A stretch of 27,513 nucleotides of DNA from a virus. The stretch spans positions 1 through 27,513 of IMG/VR virus record IMGVR_UViG_3300025781_000053, one strand, 5' to 3'. The position numbers were made by a program, and so were the translations under genes. The stretch's first letter is position 1; the number at the start of each line of letters is the position of its first letter. Shown here piece by piece: positions 3,593-17,371 of the stretch. The notes under the pieces were generated by a model. That model did not search any database and was not told the DNA's origin. It saw only the letters and a program-made list of their open reading frames with translations.

Positions 3593-3846
3593 CCAATCAA
3601 TTTTATACATTTTCAGATGGTACAGTTGTAAGACTTAGTAGCATAGATATGGTAGGCAAAGTGATGCTAGCTGCTGATTATTTTGGAAGCCCTAATCTAT
3701 TTTCTGCTGGTACATATTGTTATCGAATAATTACATTTGGTTTTTCAGGAGGAATGGGCTATATGCAGCCTACAATGCGGTATAATAGTGATAAAGATAC
3801 CCTAGAGGCTGAAAGATCTGACCTTATAGCTGCTATGACTGTTTAA
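3589..3846 (+). CDS. Small hypothetical protein, last gene of the modification cassette
   Basis: An 85-residue protein whose ATG overlaps the sulfotransferase stop (ATGA). GGAG lies five bases before the start, inside the end of the previous gene. It begins MTNQFYTFSDGTVVRLSSIDMVGKV and has a glycine-rich middle (FGFSGGMGYMQP). No signal peptide, membrane segment or catalytic motif is seen and the family is not recognised. Translational coupling suggests co-expression with the sulfotransferase. The transcript meets a convergent minus-strand gene 14 bases downstream, with no clear plus-strand terminator between them. Confidence 0.7.
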   Translation: MTNQFYTFSDGTVVRLSSIDMVGKVMLAADYFGSPNLFSAGTYCYRIITFGFSGGMGYMQPTMRYNSDKDTLEAERSDLIAAMTV

Positions 3847-4098: not shown

Positions 4099-5562
4099 TC
4101 AATCTTTAAGAACAGTAGCTAACTCTTTAGCACGAGCTGGACTCTTTAGTCGTTCAAGTGCTTTGCTTTCGATCTGACGTACACGCTCACGAGTCACATT
4201 GAACTTCTTACCAATTTCTTCCAACGTATATTCTTCGTTAACCCCAATACCAAATCGCATTCTGATGGTGCGCTCTTCTCTGGCACTGAGGTTACCTAAT
4301 ACATTGCTGACTACCTTGTTGACGTCGTCGTGACTTAATTTCTCAAATGCATTTTCACTTTCAATGTCTTCAATATAGTTGCCTAATTTTGCATCTTCCT
4401 CATCACCTACTGGTGTTTCAAGACTGATTGGATCACGAGCAACACGCTGAATACGTGCAATCTTGATCTCATCCATCTCTACCATTGCACTGAGTTCGCT
4501 CATACCGGGCTCACGACCATTTACTGCCACATAGTCTTTCACGGCCTTGTTGATTTTCTTGATGCTATCAATAACATGACTGGGAATACGTATGGTACGA
4601 TTTTGTTCTGCTGCTGCTTTAAAGATTGCTTGTCTAATCCACCAAGTGGCATATGTACTAAATCTATATCCAAGTTCCCACTTGAATTTTTCAACTGCTT
4701 TGATCAAGCCGATATTACCTTCTTGTATTAGATCCATCAAGCTATTGTTATTATTACCGGCATGATTATACTTTTTAGCAACACTAACAACCAATCGCAA
4801 GTTGGCATTTACCATGGTGTTGATAGCTGTTTCTTTGACTCGAGCGTGTCGCCCGAGATCTCGCACTGCTACTCTCAACTCACCAATACCAAGTCCCACA
4901 GTATTTGCCAAATTCTGTGCGTTTTGTTTGAAACGATCGATTTCTGTTGCATATTTGGTTGCAAACTGGGTCCAGTCTTTGGTTTTACAATCACTTAACC
5001 AATCCATATGCTCGTTATTAACATAGCGATTGACAAAGTCCTGGCGATTAACACCGCAACTCATTGCTAACTTTAGCATATCGCCATCCAACTTGTTTAT
5101 TTTGGCATTAATATCCTGAACTTGCTGCATGAGTATGCCAATACTAGTAGAGGTTAGCGGCAAGTCATTAAATGCTGCAACCAACTGATCTTTAATGGTT
5201 AAATCTTTGGTATTAGACAAATACTCGGCACATAGTCCCTGTACTGTTACCAATTGTTTAACAAACTCGGAACTGGGTGTATTATCAGAATCCAGATCTA
5301 TATCAAATATATCAGTTATAGGTTTGATATTAGCAGCAACATCTGCAATCCATGTGTTTACGGTTTTAACTGTTAATGGTATAGCAAATAAAATATCCAT
5401 AATAGCCTGCTTGCTGGCATTAATGGTTTTACTGAGATCAACTTCTTGTTCATGATTTAATAATGGATTCTTACTGACATCTCTTAGATATAAACGTATA
5501 GAATCGGATAGGTCACGTGACTGCATTTTTTCTCTAGTAGCCTTACCTGTTACCTTTGCCAT
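4099..5562 (-). CDS. rpoD: RpoD-type primary sigma-70 factor encoded by the phage
   Basis: A 487-residue sigma factor. ATG at 5562 is chosen because AAGGAG lies six bases upstream (5569-5574); an in-frame ATG further upstream has no such site. Region 1.2 ([20 protein letters not shown]) is at about residues 20-40. Region 2 runs from about 250 ([14 protein letters not shown]) through [17 protein letters not shown] to the -10 recognition helix [19 protein letters not shown]. Region 3 follows, then the group 1 signature [21 protein letters not shown]. Region 4.2 carries the helix-turn-helix YTLEEIGKK...[14 protein letters not shown] that reads the -35. About 190 residues of non-conserved sequence separate 1.2 and 2.1; region 1.1 is absent. 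T4-type late sigma factors are far smaller, so this looks like a captured host housekeeping sigma. It would direct host or phage RNA polymerase to TTGACA/TATAAT promoters, which are abundant here. Confidence 0.95.
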
Positions 5563-5599
5563 TTTGATCTCCTTGTGGACCTTTAATATAGTTTGTGTT

Positions 5600-6172
5600 C
5601 TATTCTGTGTCAATGGTTTTTGTGAGTTCTAGTATTTCTTCCAAATGAATTGGTGTATAATTGATATTTTCAACACACACATTGATATATCGTTTATCAA
5701 TTCCATTAGCATCCTTAACTCGATTACGATGCAAGTGTCCGTGCATATTGAAGCGAGTTTTGAATTCCAAACTTCCCGGATGGACAGGCACGTGAGTTAA
5801 GAGAATGTTGAATTCGGGAAACATTCTCCACATTAAAATCTTCTGGAAGTTGTTTAGCACCTCGGGATTTTTAGCAGTGTCATGATTACCTAAAATCAAT
5901 CGTTTACGTCCTTTTAGCCTAGGAAGTACCTGGTGACCCTGCCCAAAATAAACATCGCCGAGATGATACACAATATCGCATGTGGCGACAACTCGATTCC
6001 AGTTTTCAACCATTGTTTCATCCATATGCTCCACTGATTCAAACACACGGAGGGGATCTCCGTCTGCGGTTTTAAATTTGAGTATGTTGGCATGCCCCCA
6101 ATGTGTATCCGACACAAACCAAATATTTCGATTCGTGACGATAGCCGGACCAGCTACAGCATTTTCTTCCAC
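5600..6172 (-). CDS. Calcineurin-like metallophosphoesterase
   Basis: A 190-residue protein starting with GTG at 6172, supported by AAGGA about seven bases upstream. All metal-binding motifs of the calcineurin-like superfamily are present in order: [30 protein letters not shown] and MHGHLHRN. The short single-domain form resembles the small phosphoesterases common in phages, which act on phosphodiesters or nucleotides; the substrate cannot be read. First gene of the operon that includes the sigma factor, behind the promoter at 6202-6230. Confidence 0.88.
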
Positions 6173-7244: not shown

Positions 7245-7660
7245 TTAATAACTTTGATTGTTTACGTATCTATCTCTTCTATAATGTCTACTATTGGTTT
7301 TATTTTTATTCTTATATCTAGAACTTTGGCTATGACAATTAGGACAAATACATCTTAAGTTATTAACATTATTGTTGTATGGGTTACTGTCTATATGATC
7401 TAATTCAAGATCAATTGGTTTGACGTTGTAATCTACAATGCTGCACTCTGAACATTGATAGTTTTGTTTTTCTAATATATATTTTTTAACCCATCCGGAC
7501 GTTCCATACGTATTTCCCCCGGATCTGTTCCTGCTAAGCAATTGGAAACTTGTTGCTTATATTCGAACTCTCTTTGGCATATATTAGAACAATATTTGTT
7601 GATTTTTTGATGAGATGTTTTGCATACTTTGCCGCAGTTTAAACATTGGTAGGATGACAT
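7245..7660 (-). pseudogene. HNH endonuclease gene split by a -1 frameshift
   Basis: Two overlapping reading frames together encode one familiar HNH protein. The first (ATG 7660, stop at 7472) starts MSSYQCLNCGKVCKTSH and holds two CxxC-type zinc pairs. The second (read to 7245) continues with SGGNTYGTSGWVKKYILEKQNYQCSEC (written here only to show order), LELDHIDSNPYNN, and NLRCICPNCHSQSSRYKNKNK, i.e. the H-N-H core with its zinc knuckle. In phage relatives the linker NxLAG...GG...G is followed directly by the WVKKYILE-type helix, so a -1 shift near the GGGGG run at 7516-7520 (minus CCG GGG GAA) restores the whole protein. The cause may be a true inactivating indel, programmed slippage or a sequencing error. 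It lies 19 bases downstream of the interrupted tRNA-Thr and has no clear Shine-Dalgarno. Confidence 0.8.
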
Positions 7661-7679: not shown

Positions 7680-7842
7680 TGGTGCCCGAAGACGGATTCG
7701 AACCGCCGACCTACTGATTACGGTTTGGTCCGCTAAGCTTTAGGCTTTTAGGACCCACAAACAACCGGGAACTTTAAGTTCCCGGTTGTAGCGTTACCCG
7801 CCACGGAAAAATCAGTTGCTCTACCAGCTGAGCTATTCGGGC
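7680..7842 (-). tRNA. tRNA-Thr interrupted in the anticodon loop by an 87-nt insert
   Basis: Both halves of a sound tRNA are present: acceptor GCCCGAA/TTCGGGC (7 of 7 pairs), D stem GCTC/GAGC, anticodon stem ACTGA/TCAGT, T stem GGCGG/CCGTC around TTCGAAT, discriminator A and encoded CCA (7680-7682). Between the anticodon stem strands lie 94 bases in place of 7. Joining after U34 (7809) to G35 (7721) leaves the loop TTTGTAA, anticodon TGT (Thr), and the G1-C72, C2-G71 pairs fit threonine identity. Other junctions are possible: after U33 gives CGT (Thr); ending the insert in G gives TTT (Lys). The insert (about 7722-7808) holds three hairpins. Confidence 0.8.
7722..7808 (-). other. 87-nt structured intervening sequence (possible novel intron) in tRNA-Thr
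   Basis: Minus strand, in order: stem GTGGCG/CGCTAC with a 5-base loop (7788-7804); a 12-bp stem ACAACCGGGAAC/GTTCCCGGTTGT with a 5-base loop (7761-7789, sharing its outer two pairs with the first); GGTCC/GGACC enclosing a smaller CTAA/UUAG hairpin (7727-7755). CCGT occurs just inside the 5' boundary and spans the 3' one. It is far shorter than known group I or II introns, and the group I P7 consensus is not seen. Boundaries are set only by restoring a 7-base loop. Confidence 0.6.
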
Positions 7843-7850
7843 ATTCTTAC

Positions 7851-7879
7851 AATGTACAACCTATTGAATTTCTTGTCAA
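7851..7879 (-). promoter_or_regulatory. Sigma-70-type promoter for tRNA-Thr
   Basis: Minus strand: TTGACA (7874-7879), 17-base spacer, TACATT (7851-7856). Transcription would start about two bases before the tRNA 5' end. The -35 overlaps the stop codon of the holin gene. Confidence 0.7.
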
Positions 7880-8514
7880 GAATCATTTAACACTTTATTA
7901 CCAACTATTTTAGTTCGTAATAAATCTGTTTGTCCTCTTGACCATGCAGCAACACCAAGAATGGCACCAAAACTAATATGCATCATTCCGCCGTTGCTCA
8001 ATGTAAGACTGGTCCAGGGATGAAACTCGGTATGAGTAAAGATTGGTACTAATTCAAACATTGTAGGGGCTATTACAAAATCAAATAAACAAATGATCAA
8101 ATATGCCCAACCGGCAGCAGCTCTCCAATATTTTCTCATCCAATGATCATATCCCTGTAAGTTGGTAAGATTGGTAATTCTTGCAGCTTCACTTTGTCTA
8201 AAACTTTCAGCACGATCTGCTAATTCCATTTCATGATCTGCTCTTAGCTCTTCTAGTCGCATTCTACGATTAGCTATGTCAATATCAGCTAATATCTTGG
8301 CTTTGACTATATCCTCTGACAATCCTGCTAGACTGCTGATAGAACTACATGACATTTTGTCAAGTTCACTGTGTGCTCGCAATTCTTCTAATCGCATCTT
8401 ACGATTGGCTATATCAATTTCGCTTTGTGCTTTTGCTAGTTCGATGTCATCATAATCTTCAGCATCAGCAAACTTAAATTGGTCGTTGGGATTTTCTGAA
8501 ATTGGATCTGTCAT
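7876..8514 (-). CDS. Holin of the 3-TM (GTA-holin) type with coiled-coil N-terminus
   Basis: A 212-residue protein. The last 90 residues hold WMRKYWRAAAGWAYLIICLF, DFVIAPTMFELVP and GGMMHISFGAILGVAAWSRGQ, the pattern of the phage 'holin of 3TMs' family (W-R-P/A-x-x-G, FDF-x-IAP, GAILGVAAW). The N-terminal 120 residues are highly charged and helical, with a near-duplicate segment: DIANRKMRLEELRAHSE (about 34-50) and DIANRRMRLEELRADHE (about 78-94). Holins open the inner membrane and set lysis time; the long coiled-coil may time or oligomerise the hole. No endolysin gene is visible in this window. AAGG lies eight bases before the ATG and an AATAAATAT box 24 bases upstream. Confidence 0.8.
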   Translation of the reverse strand: MTDPISENPNDQFKFADAEDYDDIELAKAQSEIDIANRKMRLEELRAHSELDKMSCSSISSLAGLSEDIVKAKILADIDIANRRMRLEELRADHEMELADRAESFRQSEAARITNLTNLQGYDHWMRKYWRAAAGWAYLIICLFDFVIAPTMFELVPIFTHTEFHPWTSLTLSNGGMMHISFGAILGVAAWSRGQTDLLRTKIVGNKVLNDS

Positions 8515-8537
8515 ATCTGAGCCTTAATAGTGACTCG

Positions 8538-8546
8538 ATATTTATT
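8538..8546 (-). promoter_or_regulatory. T4-late-like promoter box AATAAATAT before the holin
   Basis: The minus strand reads GAATAAATATCG, identical over nine bases to the boxes at 583 (+) and 27376 (-). Late timing would suit a lysis gene. Confidence 0.5.
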
Positions 8547-8552
8547 CAACCA

Positions 8553-8849
8553 TTAGAAATCATTCAAATCCTTGCACAGTTCAAAATATGTTTTCCAATA
8601 TGGAGTTTTAGACAAATCATAATATACCGACCAAAAATCACTGCAATCGCTGGTATTGTGGCCTTCCAAATACACTGAAAAATAACTACCAAACATCGAT
8701 TCCCTAACCTGTAGGTATGCTCTTTCATCCGGATGACCTGGCATAGGGTCTAGATCTATATGTAAGTCAGTGCGACCCGATTGCTGAATAGCCTCTTTAA
8801 CCAGATCGCGTTGATTATTTTTTAAATTGGTTAGATACCGTCTAGTCAC
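8553..8849 (-). CDS. Hypothetical protein coupled to SprT-like protease
   Basis: A 98-residue protein beginning with GTG at 8849, which overlaps the stop of the protease gene (GTGTGA: stop 8846-8848). No strong ribosome site is seen, so translation is probably coupled. The product is soluble and aromatic-rich, with HIDLDPMPGHPDERAYLQVRE in the middle and a tail of YWKTYFELCKDLNDF. The family is not recognised. The overlap points to co-expression with the protease, without showing function. Confidence 0.7.
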   Translation of the reverse strand: MTRRYLTNLKNNQRDLVKEAIQQSGRTDLHIDLDPMPGHPDERAYLQVRESMFGSYFSVYLEGHNTSDCSDFWSVYYDLSKTPYWKTYFELCKDLNDF

Positions 8850-10891: not shown

Positions 10892-10980
10892 TGGATCGGG
10901 AGGCAGGGATCGAACCTGCACCAAGCATTTTCTGTTTACGGAGTCAAAGTCCGTCGTTTTACCAATTAAACTACTCCCGA
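10892..10980 (-). tRNA. tRNA-Gln (anticodon TTG) with an 18-nt variable region
   Basis: An 89-nt cloverleaf with encoded CCA (10892-10894). Acceptor TCGGGAG/CTCCCGA (U1-A72, as in glutamine tRNAs), D stem GTTT/AAAC, anticodon stem ACGGA/TCCGT around CTTTGAC (anticodon TTG), T stem GCAGG/CCTGC around TTCGATC, discriminator T. The variable region AAACAGAAAATGCTTGGT has 18 bases, where glutamine tRNAs have about five, and forms no stable arm by eye. Confidence 0.85.
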
Positions 10981-13865: not shown

Positions 13866-14396
13866 ATGAGATCAACTGACTTACTTAGAAAGTATATTGA
13901 TATACTTGCAGAATCAGAATCCACCGATATTAACTCAATAGCATCAACATTGGATTTTAAACCAACACATAAACAACCAAAGAAATATAAGTTTATAGAA
14001 GCAGGTAAGCCGGGCCAAATGCCACCGATGACCTATACACAGGCCAAGGAAACCCAGCGTGTGGTCACTGTAACAAGCGATGGCAAGGAAACAGAAAACA
14101 CAGCCAATCCTGGCGATATTATTATGAGCGGCCCTACCAAGGAAAATTATGTATTAAAGTTTGAAAAGTTTCAAAAACTTTATGACGGCGAGTTAGGTCA
14201 AACAGTAACACCAGAGCAATCACCGCGTATGGTAGCAGTATATCACGGTCCGGATACTGTTAAGTTCAAAGCCAGTTGGGGAGAAGATATGATTCTTAAG
14301 CCAGGTGACTACTTGGTAAAAGAACCGGACGATCGGGGTTATTACCGTATCGCCCGTCAAGAATATGAGGAAACTTATAATCCACCGGGGCATTAA
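13866..14396 (+). CDS. Hypothetical protein with two PGD repeats
   Basis: A 176-residue protein. ATG 13866 has GGAG seven bases upstream; a GTG one codon earlier is possible. After a helical N-terminus ([20 protein letters not shown]) there are two similar modules: [27 protein letters not shown] and [27 protein letters not shown]. The pattern 'PGD-[WIY]-hydrophobic ... Y-x-[hydrophobic] ... F/Y-x-x-x-Y' recurs in phage and bacterial proteins of unknown role. No catalytic residues are seen. The gene converges on ftsH, and both stop codons fall in the loop of a shared hairpin. Confidence 0.7.
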
Positions 14397-14402
14397 GCCC
14401 CG
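14386..14402. terminator. Bidirectional hairpin holding both convergent stop codons
   Basis: CGGGGC/GCCCCG with loop ATTAA: a six-base, all-GC stem between the 176-aa gene and ftsH. The TAA stops of both genes overlap within the loop. No T-tract follows on either strand, so terminator function is uncertain. Confidence 0.45.
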
Positions 14403-17371
14403 TTGTAACTCACTTCACCGTCTGCGACTAGTTCTTTACGATCATCGTCGGTTAGGTTGTGCTTGGGTTTGTCATCAACTACACCGTCACGCACCGGACG
14501 TTTGCCTTTTAGAAGATTTTTAATTTCTTCCCCTGTTAGTGTTTCAAACTCCAACAATGCTTTGGCCAGTGTCTCAAGATCATGACGCTTTTCAGTTAAG
14601 ATACGTTTTGCAGTATCATAACCTTCTTGAACCAATCTCTTGACTTCTGAGTCAATTATCTGCTGAGTTTCTTCACTTATGGTCTTTGGCTTGGCAAATG
14701 CATATGGGTCATTGCTTAAATCTGCATAAGCAACTGTGCCCAACTTGCTGCTAAATCCAAGTTGTGTAACCATTGCTCGAGCAATCTTTGTGCATTGCTG
14801 AATATCACTGGCAGCACCACTTGTGACTTTGCTTTCACCGAATACCAATTCTTCAGCAACACGACCACCCATGGCCATTGCCAACATTGATGTCATCTGC
14901 TCATAGGTCTGGCTGATTTCATCACGCTCTGGTAATGATTGAACCATGCCTAGTGCTCGCCCACGAGGAATAATAGTAGCCTTGTGGATGGGAGTAGAAG
15001 CAGGTGTATTAAGGCTCACAAGAGCATGACCACCTTCGTGATAAGCGGTAAGACTCTTTTCTTCTTCTGTCATGCTAAGTGTACGACGTTCAGCACCCAT
15101 GAGAATCTTATCACGAGCATCTTCAAACTCCTGCTTGGTAACAATACGCTTGCTGCGACGTGCTGCTAGTAGAGCTGCTTCATTAACCAGGTTCATGAGA
15201 TCTGCACCTGAGAAGCCGGGAGTACCCCTGGCAACCACTTTCAAGTCTACATCTGGAGCAAGTGGTACTTTACGAGAGTGTACCTTAAGGATCTTTTCAC
15301 GTCCTATAAAGTCTGGGTTTGGAACTTGAATCTGACGATCAAAGCGACCCGGACGTAATAGTGCAGGATCCAATACGTCTGCACGGTTAGTAGCAGCAAT
15401 AAGGATAATGCCCTCGTTGGGTTCAAACCCATCCATTTCAACCAGCAGTTGGTTTAGAGTTTGCTCACGCTCGTCATTACCGCCGCCTAGTCCTACTCCG
15501 CGATTTCTACCAACAGCGTCAATTTCGTCACAGAATATAATGCAGGGTGCATTCTTTTTGGCCTGTTCGAACATGTCACGTACGCGACTTGCACCGACAC
15601 CCACAAACATTTCCACAAAGTCTGAACCTGATATGCTAAAGAATGGTACGCCCGCTTCTCCAGCAATTGCACGAGCAAGTAGTGTATTGTGAGTTACCAC
15701 ATAATCATCTGTAACATATAAATGATCTGGATGGTCTATTAGTATACATTGTGCTGGTTTGAATCCAACACTTTGTATGTTAACTATTTCTCGCCCAAAA
15801 AAGTACTGATGACTTGATAATTTTGAAGCTAACCGTTTTTTTCTGGGTAATCTAAATAAGTCTGAATTATCTCCTAATCTTACCCACAAATTATACACAT
15901 CTTTACCTTGTTTTTGTACTCCTCGGTATGTATAAGTTTTCTTGGTCGGACCGTGTATTTTGCATTTTCCTCCTAAACTCCAAATCAAATTTCTTAAACC
16001 ATCTGCAAGTTCGTAACTTGTAGTACTAAAGAATGCCGAACCTGTTCTTTCAGCAGTGCCATCTGAATCCATTAATCCCTGTACTAACGCTAGTCTATCC
16101 TCTATAGCAGCATTAAAATATAGTTCAGGAATAAATTTTTCATCTGACTTTTTACCTAATAAACCTAAATCATAAATCACATTTGTATAATAATTTAGAT
16201 AATTACCATGCTCTCCATACCCTATTCGCATGGTTTTACGTAAATCGGGATTAATTTCAATTCTATGATCATAAAATTTAACATGATTTAACTCATAGCC
16301 TTCTTTTAACACCGATTGTATTTCATTTAAAATAAACTCGTCCTTGGTTGAAAATCCAATGGATCTGGTTGTAGACGTACCGTCACCGAGATATAATCCT
16401 AAAAGATACGGGTCTATAGGTAGATCAATTTTTGGATTGTCTAATGGCTTAACTAGTTTAATTTTTGGTTTATAATTTGTATTATTTTTCCATTCAATTA
16501 TCTCAGACAGCGACATAACTTTGGAACGATTAGGTAAATGTTTCCAATCCTTGCAATAAATTTCCCACAAATGTTCTTTACAACATTCTGTGTAGGAACC
16601 GTCATCAAATTCAATTTTGAAGATTTCTTTATCGCCTTGTGGAAATAATCCTATTACTTTTGCAGTTTTGTTGTCTGGGGTTGATACCATATCACCGAGT
16701 TTGATATCGCCCATTTTTACCCAGCCGCCTGGTACTTTAATTTTAGCATCAAGTGGTTGAGCTTTACCTGTACCTGGTGGCCCAACTAATAGAACACCTC
16801 TGGGAATTTTACCACCTAAACGTTCGAACTTGTGAGGATCCTTTAGGAAGTCAACAACTTCTTGTAGATCTTCTTTGGCTTCGTCAACACCTGCAACATC
16901 TTCAAATGTTATCTTGGTTTTCGATTCGTTTAGTAACTTGGCTTTTGATTTGCCAAATCCCATTGCACCGCCGGCGCCACCTCGGCCCATGCTGCGAGAA
17001 ACCCAAAACCAAACAGCAAAAAATAACAGTATAGGTAATACATTAACTAATACATTCATCCAAAAACTTGTTTCGCCTCTGGGCTTGACATTTATTTGAA
17101 CACTTTTTTCTTCTAGTTTTGGTACTAGATTTGGATCATCTGGTGTATAAGTTTCAAAAACTCTGTTGTTGTCTTTGAAATGTCCTTCCATTTCATTACC
17201 AGAAATAGTAACATCATGTATGTTACCAGCTGTTAATTGATTAAGAAAATCACTAAATGATATTTCTCTAATGTCTGGCTTACGGTCTTGTACTTGATAA
17301 ATGCTTAGTAGTGCTAGTGTTAAACCCACTAGCAAAAACCATGGTATAATTTTTTTCCAATTCATTTTCAT
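14393..17371 (-). CDS. ftsH: FtsH membrane AAA+ zinc protease precursor with intein in Walker A
   Basis: A 992-residue precursor that gives a 633-residue FtsH after splicing, close to the bacterial length. Domains: membrane segment about 8-25, periplasmic domain to about 103, second membrane segment about 105-125, then AAA+. Walker A is GPPGTGK|T, cut between K203 and T563 by the intein. After it come the pore FVG, Walker B IIFCDEID (611-618), the arginine-finger region [12 protein letters not shown], protease HEGGH (778-782) and third zinc ligand D856 (SGAASD). Wording such as [12 protein letters not shown] and [13 protein letters not shown] is alphaproteobacterial in style. AAGGAG lies six bases before the ATG. 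FtsH degrades membrane and regulatory proteins; a phage copy may act on host membrane proteins, lysis proteins or damaged photosystem or respiratory proteins. Ordinary phages use the host's FtsH, so this is unusual. Confidence 0.95.
15686..16762 (-). mobile_element. Class 3-type intein with LAGLIDADG endonuclease inside ftsH
   Basis: Residues 204-562 of the precursor (359 aa). It starts with Ala ([20 protein letters not shown]) and so lacks the nucleophile of class 1 inteins. Block B reads [11 protein letters not shown] with Trp two residues after the His (W269); block F has [14 protein letters not shown] with C542; the end is VVTHN (T560, H561, N562) followed by extein Thr. Trp, Cys and Thr at these places form the WCT set of class 3 inteins. 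Two LAGLIDADG helices, LLGLYLGDG (323-331) and [10 protein letters not shown] (429-438), mark a homing endonuclease. The DNA is more AT-rich than the flanking ftsH. Confidence 0.9.

Follow-up and report, generated by a model that had tools for sequence, protein, structure and literature searches.

We report a phage tRNA-Thr(UGU) gene whose anticodon loop is interrupted by an 87-nt insert and which is probably spliced, a reading that is well supported by comparative evidence. The gene lies on the minus strand (7842..7680) of a 27,513-nt stretch of viral DNA, the IMG/VR record IMGVR_UViG_3300025781_000053, the whole of which we call the window. The best explanation of the sequences compared here is that the insert belongs to a small, structurally conserved family of tRNA introns outside the group I, group II and bulge-helix-bulge classes. 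As to its removal, without which the tRNA could not work, we favor a cut-and-seal route in which this small non-group-I intron would be cut by a nuclease (or would cut itself) and the exons sealed by phage RNA-repair enzymes, and we give this reading a probability of roughly 0.48.

The interrupted gene is a complete tRNA-Thr, with all four arms and an encoded CCA. As the original prediction held, the arms pair well: the acceptor stem reads GCCCGAA/UUCGGGC, the D-stem GCUC/GAGC, the anticodon stem ACUGA/UCAGU and the T-stem GGCGG/CCGUC, and ARAGORN in its intron mode returns the same tRNA-Thr, c[7680,7842], with an intron of 87 bases. It had also been predicted that 94 bases stand in place of the normal seven-base anticodon loop; the loop is indeed of that size, with the correction that the insert itself makes up 87 nt of it. 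Both ARAGORN by default and Rfam at its gathering score miss the gene while finding three other tRNAs in the window. We note separately that the tRNA-Gln(UUG) at 10892-10980 (minus strand, 89 nt) has a variable region that exceeds the normal length for its isoacceptor by about 15 nt.

The borders of the insert are fixed by an allele that lacks it. A 95-kb phage (IMG/VR contig 3300025410_000010, G003), the contig of which is otherwise unrelated to the window in the part compared, carries an intact tRNA-Thr(UGU), L006, that equals the joined window exons at 76/76 bases. The 5' exon (7809..7842; tRNA positions 1-34, ending ...ACUGAUUU) is identical to L006:620-653 and the 3' exon (7680..7721; tRNA positions 35-76, GUAAUCAGU...CCA) to L006:654-695. 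The insert (7722..7808), which ARAGORN also delimits and which has homologues in loci L017, L098 and L089, therefore sits between U34 and G35, with UUU before it and GUAA after it, and the joined exons read ...ACTGATTTGTAATCAGT... across the junction. But for the L006 allele a join giving CGU would be equally legal; with it the anticodon is UGU, as had been expected from a join after U34, and among the Thr codons of the window ACA is used most often. Judged against the same allele, there is no target duplication at the insert junction. A promoter had been placed ahead of the gene, and one of the sigma-70-like form TTGACA-17-TACATT (7851..7879, minus strand; 10/12 matches) does end 8 nt before the first tRNA base; the promoter scan of this region found two against 0.8 expected.

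An assembly error was considered and rejected, since a second contig, 3300025399_000010, is 100% identical to the window throughout the 8.6 and 11 kb compared, though both contigs may share one site of origin. Tandem tRNAs were a further source of artefact: 10 of the 11 matches to the first exon pattern proved to be two adjacent normal tRNAs and were discarded, the window locus being different.

The insert folds, as predicted, into three successive hairpins, with an MFE of -38.4 as compared to -24.0 +/- 3.4 for dinucleotide shuffles (z -4.2); for the whole split gene the fold z is -5.35. The splice point falls inside or beside a predicted UUU:AAA pairing, and the hairpins follow in a row on the minus strand: H1 (7788..7804), GUGGCG-GGUAA-CGCUAC, with a conserved loop containing UAA; H2 (7763..7787), a perfect 11-bp stem of variable sequence in which the pairing is always kept; a linker, GUUUGUG (7756..7762), with 6/7 bases common to L017; and H3 (7727..7755), GGUCC...GGACC, with an inner AAGC-CUAAA-GCUU. 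A tail, AAACC (7722..7726), completes the insert before the 3' splice point. The cloverleaf stays available with the insert present, at a cost of 1.1 kcal/mol (-69.2 vs -70.3 kcal/mol). A match to a palindromic repeat family scattered at random, the objection raised with the original prediction, was rejected; the insert is single-copy both in the window and in a 310-kb phage that carries a relative of it.

Three relatives of the insert were found in other phages, all of them at the 34/35 site of a tRNA-Thr gene. Locus L017, in the 310-kb phage (G001), was found by an IMG/VR scan for a D-arm followed by the loop bases TTTTCCG, and three further contigs are 100% identical there. L098 and L089 came from a scan in which CCAAANNNNAA had to precede a tRNA 3' half, and lie on incomplete contigs of 82 and 33 kb, respectively, the latter being 3300025020_000007, in which TnpB-like genes or fragments (L089:1035-1361 and 7700-8788) lie at distances of about 0.75 kb and 5 kb from the split gene. 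The inserts measure 87 nt in the window and in L017, 73 nt in L098 and 78 nt in L089. All four phages have an intact cloverleaf around three hairpins in a row, and the insert ends with CCAAAnn before a G in all four, although the conservation of CCAAA in L089 and L098 is partly built in, these letters having stood in the pattern by which the two were found. The search of other phages for covarying stems that had been proposed thus yielded both relatives and covariation: with helices taken from each sequence's own fold, H2 has 6-9 of its 11 pairs changed on both sides in every comparison among the four sequences, H1 up to 4 of 6 and the base of H3 up to 2, and no helix has a broken pair.

The window and L017 exons differ at 14/76 sites, and in the corresponding inserts 25/31 unpaired bases are conserved as compared to 23/44 paired ones (p 0.015), a pattern as in functional RNA. 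The bases conserved between these two are mostly unpaired ones (UUCC, the loop UAA, the UUUGUG linker, CUAAA and AAA). The inserts form two distinct lineages, window/L017 and L098/L089, linked by site, host gene, hairpin order and a motif, GGAUAAUG, common to L017, L098 and L089; a covariance model of one lineage finds the other weakly, at E 0.5, this being among the matches listed the sole non-self locus in 746 kb. No homologue of the insert was found by blastn among INPHARED phages or PLSDB plasmids, a pattern scan of GTDB genomes gave two matches, both chance ones in coding sequence, and looser core patterns in IMG/VR likewise matched coding DNA by chance. A tRNA half in Rhodobacter phage RcXuper was rejected as a relative: this unannotated 5' half (L165:1500-1540, RcXuper 3725-3754) lies beside a tmRNA-like gene with no 3' half within 500 nt, and is not of the three-hairpin tRNA-Thr insert family. 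The same phage has a tRNA-Leu-like gene with a 40-nt insert (L165:148-281). We found no description of the three-hairpin tRNA-Thr insert family in the open-licence literature.

That the exons are undecayed, as first supposed, is borne out by their intact arms and by the comparison of L098 with L089, in which the exons differ by 1/75 substitutions while the inserts differ by 18/73 together with five gap columns (p 1e-5). This indicates that the exons have been constrained while split, unless the exons alone were converted. No tRNA-Thr other than the split gene is among the tRNAs found in the 310-kb phage. In the 82-kb L098 record, on the other hand, the split tRNA-Thr(UGU) is followed 8 nt downstream by an intact tRNA-Thr(UGU) that differs from it in sequence (L143:1279-1508), the pair being set within an array of about 20 tRNA genes, and the split copy need therefore not be essential in that phage.

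The insert has been compared with each of the known classes of tRNA intron. Group I introns of bacterial tRNA genes, for instance in tRNA-Leu(UAA), are alike in site, the place after U34 of the anticodon loop being the classic group I position, and the smallest of them are usually about 200 nt, more than twice the size of the inserts of the window family. The original prediction that the insert is too small for group I and lacks its core is in keeping with Rfam, which gives no group I, group II or ribozyme match in the window even at E<=10 and no group I or II match in the relatives at E<=5 (a weak Twister-P5 line falls on an adjoining tRNA); the P3-P8 core with its P7 motif is not recognised by covariance model up to E 5-10. 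At the insert ends, the U34 that group I would have is in place, yet the window insert ends in C; its three relatives end in G. With respect to group II, of which a GUGYG 5' end and domain V are characteristic, the inserts start with UUCCG, UUCGG or UCCAG and have no Rfam match. Archaeal and eukaryal tRNA introns are cut by the endonuclease EndA at bulge-helix-bulge motifs (PMC4090602), and their excision by a protein enzyme followed by ligation is analogous in its logic to the route favored here. Their usual site, however, is one base 3' of the anticodon, and by inspection of the folds no motif of two 3-nt bulges and a 4-bp helix could be drawn at the splice points of the 34/35 inserts. EndA (PF01974) was absent from the seven phage records searched; the control was positive in four archaea.

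The closest parallel is with the tRNA introns of the Lak megaphages, first reported there and called "enigmatic" (Devoto et al. 2019, PMC6784885); a 2026 survey describes tRNA introns in alternative-code jumbo phages (n = 262) that could encode another tRNA (PMC13037316). The window insert is of this kind in that it interrupts the anticodon loop of a phage tRNA but leaves the exons intact, has an insert-free allele and falls into no Rfam class, and the Lak introns too include tRNA-Thr(UGU) among their hosts. In Lak-A1 (MK250015) the inserts of tRNA-Thr (L136:12337-12523, minus strand) and tRNA-Ser (L137:3-167, minus strand) share one plan, in which a leader with a small hairpin is followed by a tRNA-like domain that directly adjoins the 3' exon, and the tRNA-Thr insert lies at a site other than 34/35. 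The three-hairpin inserts are a variant distinct from these, being smaller (73-87 nt), located in all four phages at 34/35 of tRNA-Thr and without a tRNA-like acceptor/T-arm domain. Another tRNA of the 310-kb phage, tRNA-Arg(CCU) (L056:125-248, phage position 40125-40248), has a 47-nt insert in its anticodon loop that folds as an acceptor/T-arm minihelix, CGGUCCC...CAAGGUUCGAAUCCUUG GGGACCG, a tRNA-like domain inside a tRNA. How phage tRNA introns are removed is stated in no paper that we found in the open-licence literature.

With regard to removal, the original prediction had allowed for a host or phage enzyme, and the RNA-repair genes of one relative offer circumstantial support for a phage one. 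Among the genes of the 310-kb phage are those for an Rnl1-like ligase bearing a T4_Rnl1_C domain, an Rnl2-like ligase and a kinase-metallophosphatase, the last of which has a further match, to the N-terminal part of a phage RNA-ligase profile of 737 residues. The link is circumstantial because repair genes are not peculiar to phages with the intron: an Rnl1-like ligase and a kinase are likewise encoded by the 95-kb phage, whose tRNA-Thr(UGU) is intact. No RNA ligase was seen in the incomplete L098 and L089 contigs, and the window record spans only 27.5 kb; RtcB is absent from the 310-kb and 95-kb phages and from the Lak, L098 and L089 records. Lak phages have ATP-dependent RNA ligases, and four of them (MK250015, MK250019, MK250029 and MK250020) have an unusual number, four to seven Rnl2-type matches (PF09414) each, with no match to RtcB or Rnl1. 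In the pathway we envisage, the precursor would be transcribed from the promoter just ahead of the gene and would fold as a cloverleaf with a three-hairpin domain. An endonuclease of phage or host might recognise this domain through its conserved H1 loop, linker and CCAAA tail, cutting between U34 and the U that follows and between the last n and G35, and a phage repair pathway like that of the 310-kb relative, with Rnl1/Rnl2-type ligases and a kinase-phosphatase, would then heal the tRNA halves and seal them into a UGU tRNA-Thr. In T4-type tRNA repair, Pnkp and Rnl1 seal breaks in the anticodon loop, and the 310-kb relative encodes a like set; T4, however, repairs damage done by the host PrrC, whereas here the break would be a programmed step in intron removal.

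Alternatively, the insert might never be removed, and the gene might yield a long RNA serving as a decoy or regulator, or be a dead gene kept by chance, with the insert a selfish structured insertion. The intact tRNA-Thr(UGU) next door in the L098 phage and the HNH gene beside the window tRNA, which is already broken, are consistent with this, but the low exon divergence in the face of diverging inserts, the cloverleaf kept in all four phages, the precise junction, the gene's own promoter and the 310-kb phage with no other tRNA-Thr found all argue against it, and we consider it unlikely. A new small self-splicing RNA, or one that is self-cleaving and then ligated, with the 73-87-nt three-hairpin domain as catalyst, is a little more doubtful. 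The conserved unpaired bases adjoining both splice points, in the H1 and H3 loops and in the linker, beside helices that covary freely, are ribozyme-like, and no dedicated splicing endonuclease of the EndA type was found in the phages searched. There is, however, no Rfam ribozyme or intron match up to E 5-10 and, in the window copy, no terminal G such as group I would need, and 73 nt is, to our knowledge, far below any known self-splicing intron.

Two further possibilities would derive the insert from known elements. It might come from a nested tRNA-like element excised by RNase P and a 3' endonuclease and then ligated, a scheme that could apply to such introns of Lak and the 310-kb phage as have tRNA-like domains: the inserts of Lak tRNA-Thr and tRNA-Ser and of tRNA-Arg in the 310-kb phage do have tRNA-like acceptor/T-arm domains, and Devoto et al. 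(PMC6784885) note such a domain for the Lak tRNA-Thr. In the window insert H3 sits, by inspection, directly against the UUU:AAA pairing, much as a T-arm abuts an acceptor stem, but the window family has neither a T-loop consensus nor a 7-bp acceptor stem, and its 34/35 site differs from that of Lak tRNA-Thr (36/37 by inspection), all of which makes this origin improbable for the three-hairpin inserts. Decay of a group I or group II intron, with loss of the core, would accord with the insertion after U34. The Rfam group I and II models find nothing, however, the terminal G is not conserved, and a size of 73-87 nt kept in four phages argues against random decay, so that we find this origin hardly credible. 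Cut-and-seal accordingly remains, as we read the sequences, the favored reading for the tRNA-Thr insert. The broader proposal that there is a further way of removing introns, outside group I, group II and bulge-helix-bulge, in which an RNA of 73-87 nt is either self-spliced or cut by a phage or bacterial endonuclease and sealed by Rnl/Pnkp, we put forward tentatively, at slightly less than even odds.

The surroundings of the gene suggest how such an insert may have spread. An HNH endonuclease gene (7245..7660, minus strand; phrog_10822, 9e-21), frameshifted over two frames, lies 19 nt downstream of the tRNA in the window and has the same sequence in the second assembly. In L098 the last few bases of an HNH gene of its family overlap the start of the split tRNA, and the family also adjoins tRNA genes in other phages, among them intact tRNA-Thr(UGU) genes in Xanthomonas phage XbC2 and Synechococcus phage DSL-LC03; no HNH gene was recognised beside L017 or L089. 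For group I introns the tie between mobility and homing endonucleases is known (PMC3984707). In the present case, given a tRNA-linked HNH gene beside the split tRNA in both the window and L098, we infer that the HNH protein is likely a freestanding homing endonuclease that targets the tRNA gene, with the insert hiding its target, so that the tRNA gene is probably shielded by the intron against such enzymes as well; the insert has probably spread at the DNA level. Elsewhere in the window are genes for a primary-type phage sigma-70 factor (4099-5613, minus strand; phrog_351), to which a gene of the 310-kb phage is similar, and for a phage FtsH of 992 aa (14393-17371, minus strand), with an intein-like insertion within its Walker A motif. 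Several other window genes have homologues in the 310-kb phage, and the two phages may therefore be distant kin.

This family makes the removal of phage tRNA introns testable, in that the insert is of minimal size, its exact borders are given by the intact allele, four natural variants with covarying stems indicate which of its bases matter, and the 310-kb genome supplies a full set of candidate sealing enzymes. If the tRNA is spliced, a route of tRNA splicing would be added to those of bacteria, and phage RNA-repair enzymes would gain a role beyond the repair of damage; if it is self-splicing, the tRNA-Thr insert would be by far the smallest such RNA. Should either the cut-and-seal or the ribozyme reading prove true, a bacterial virus would be running a dedicated tRNA splicing pathway.
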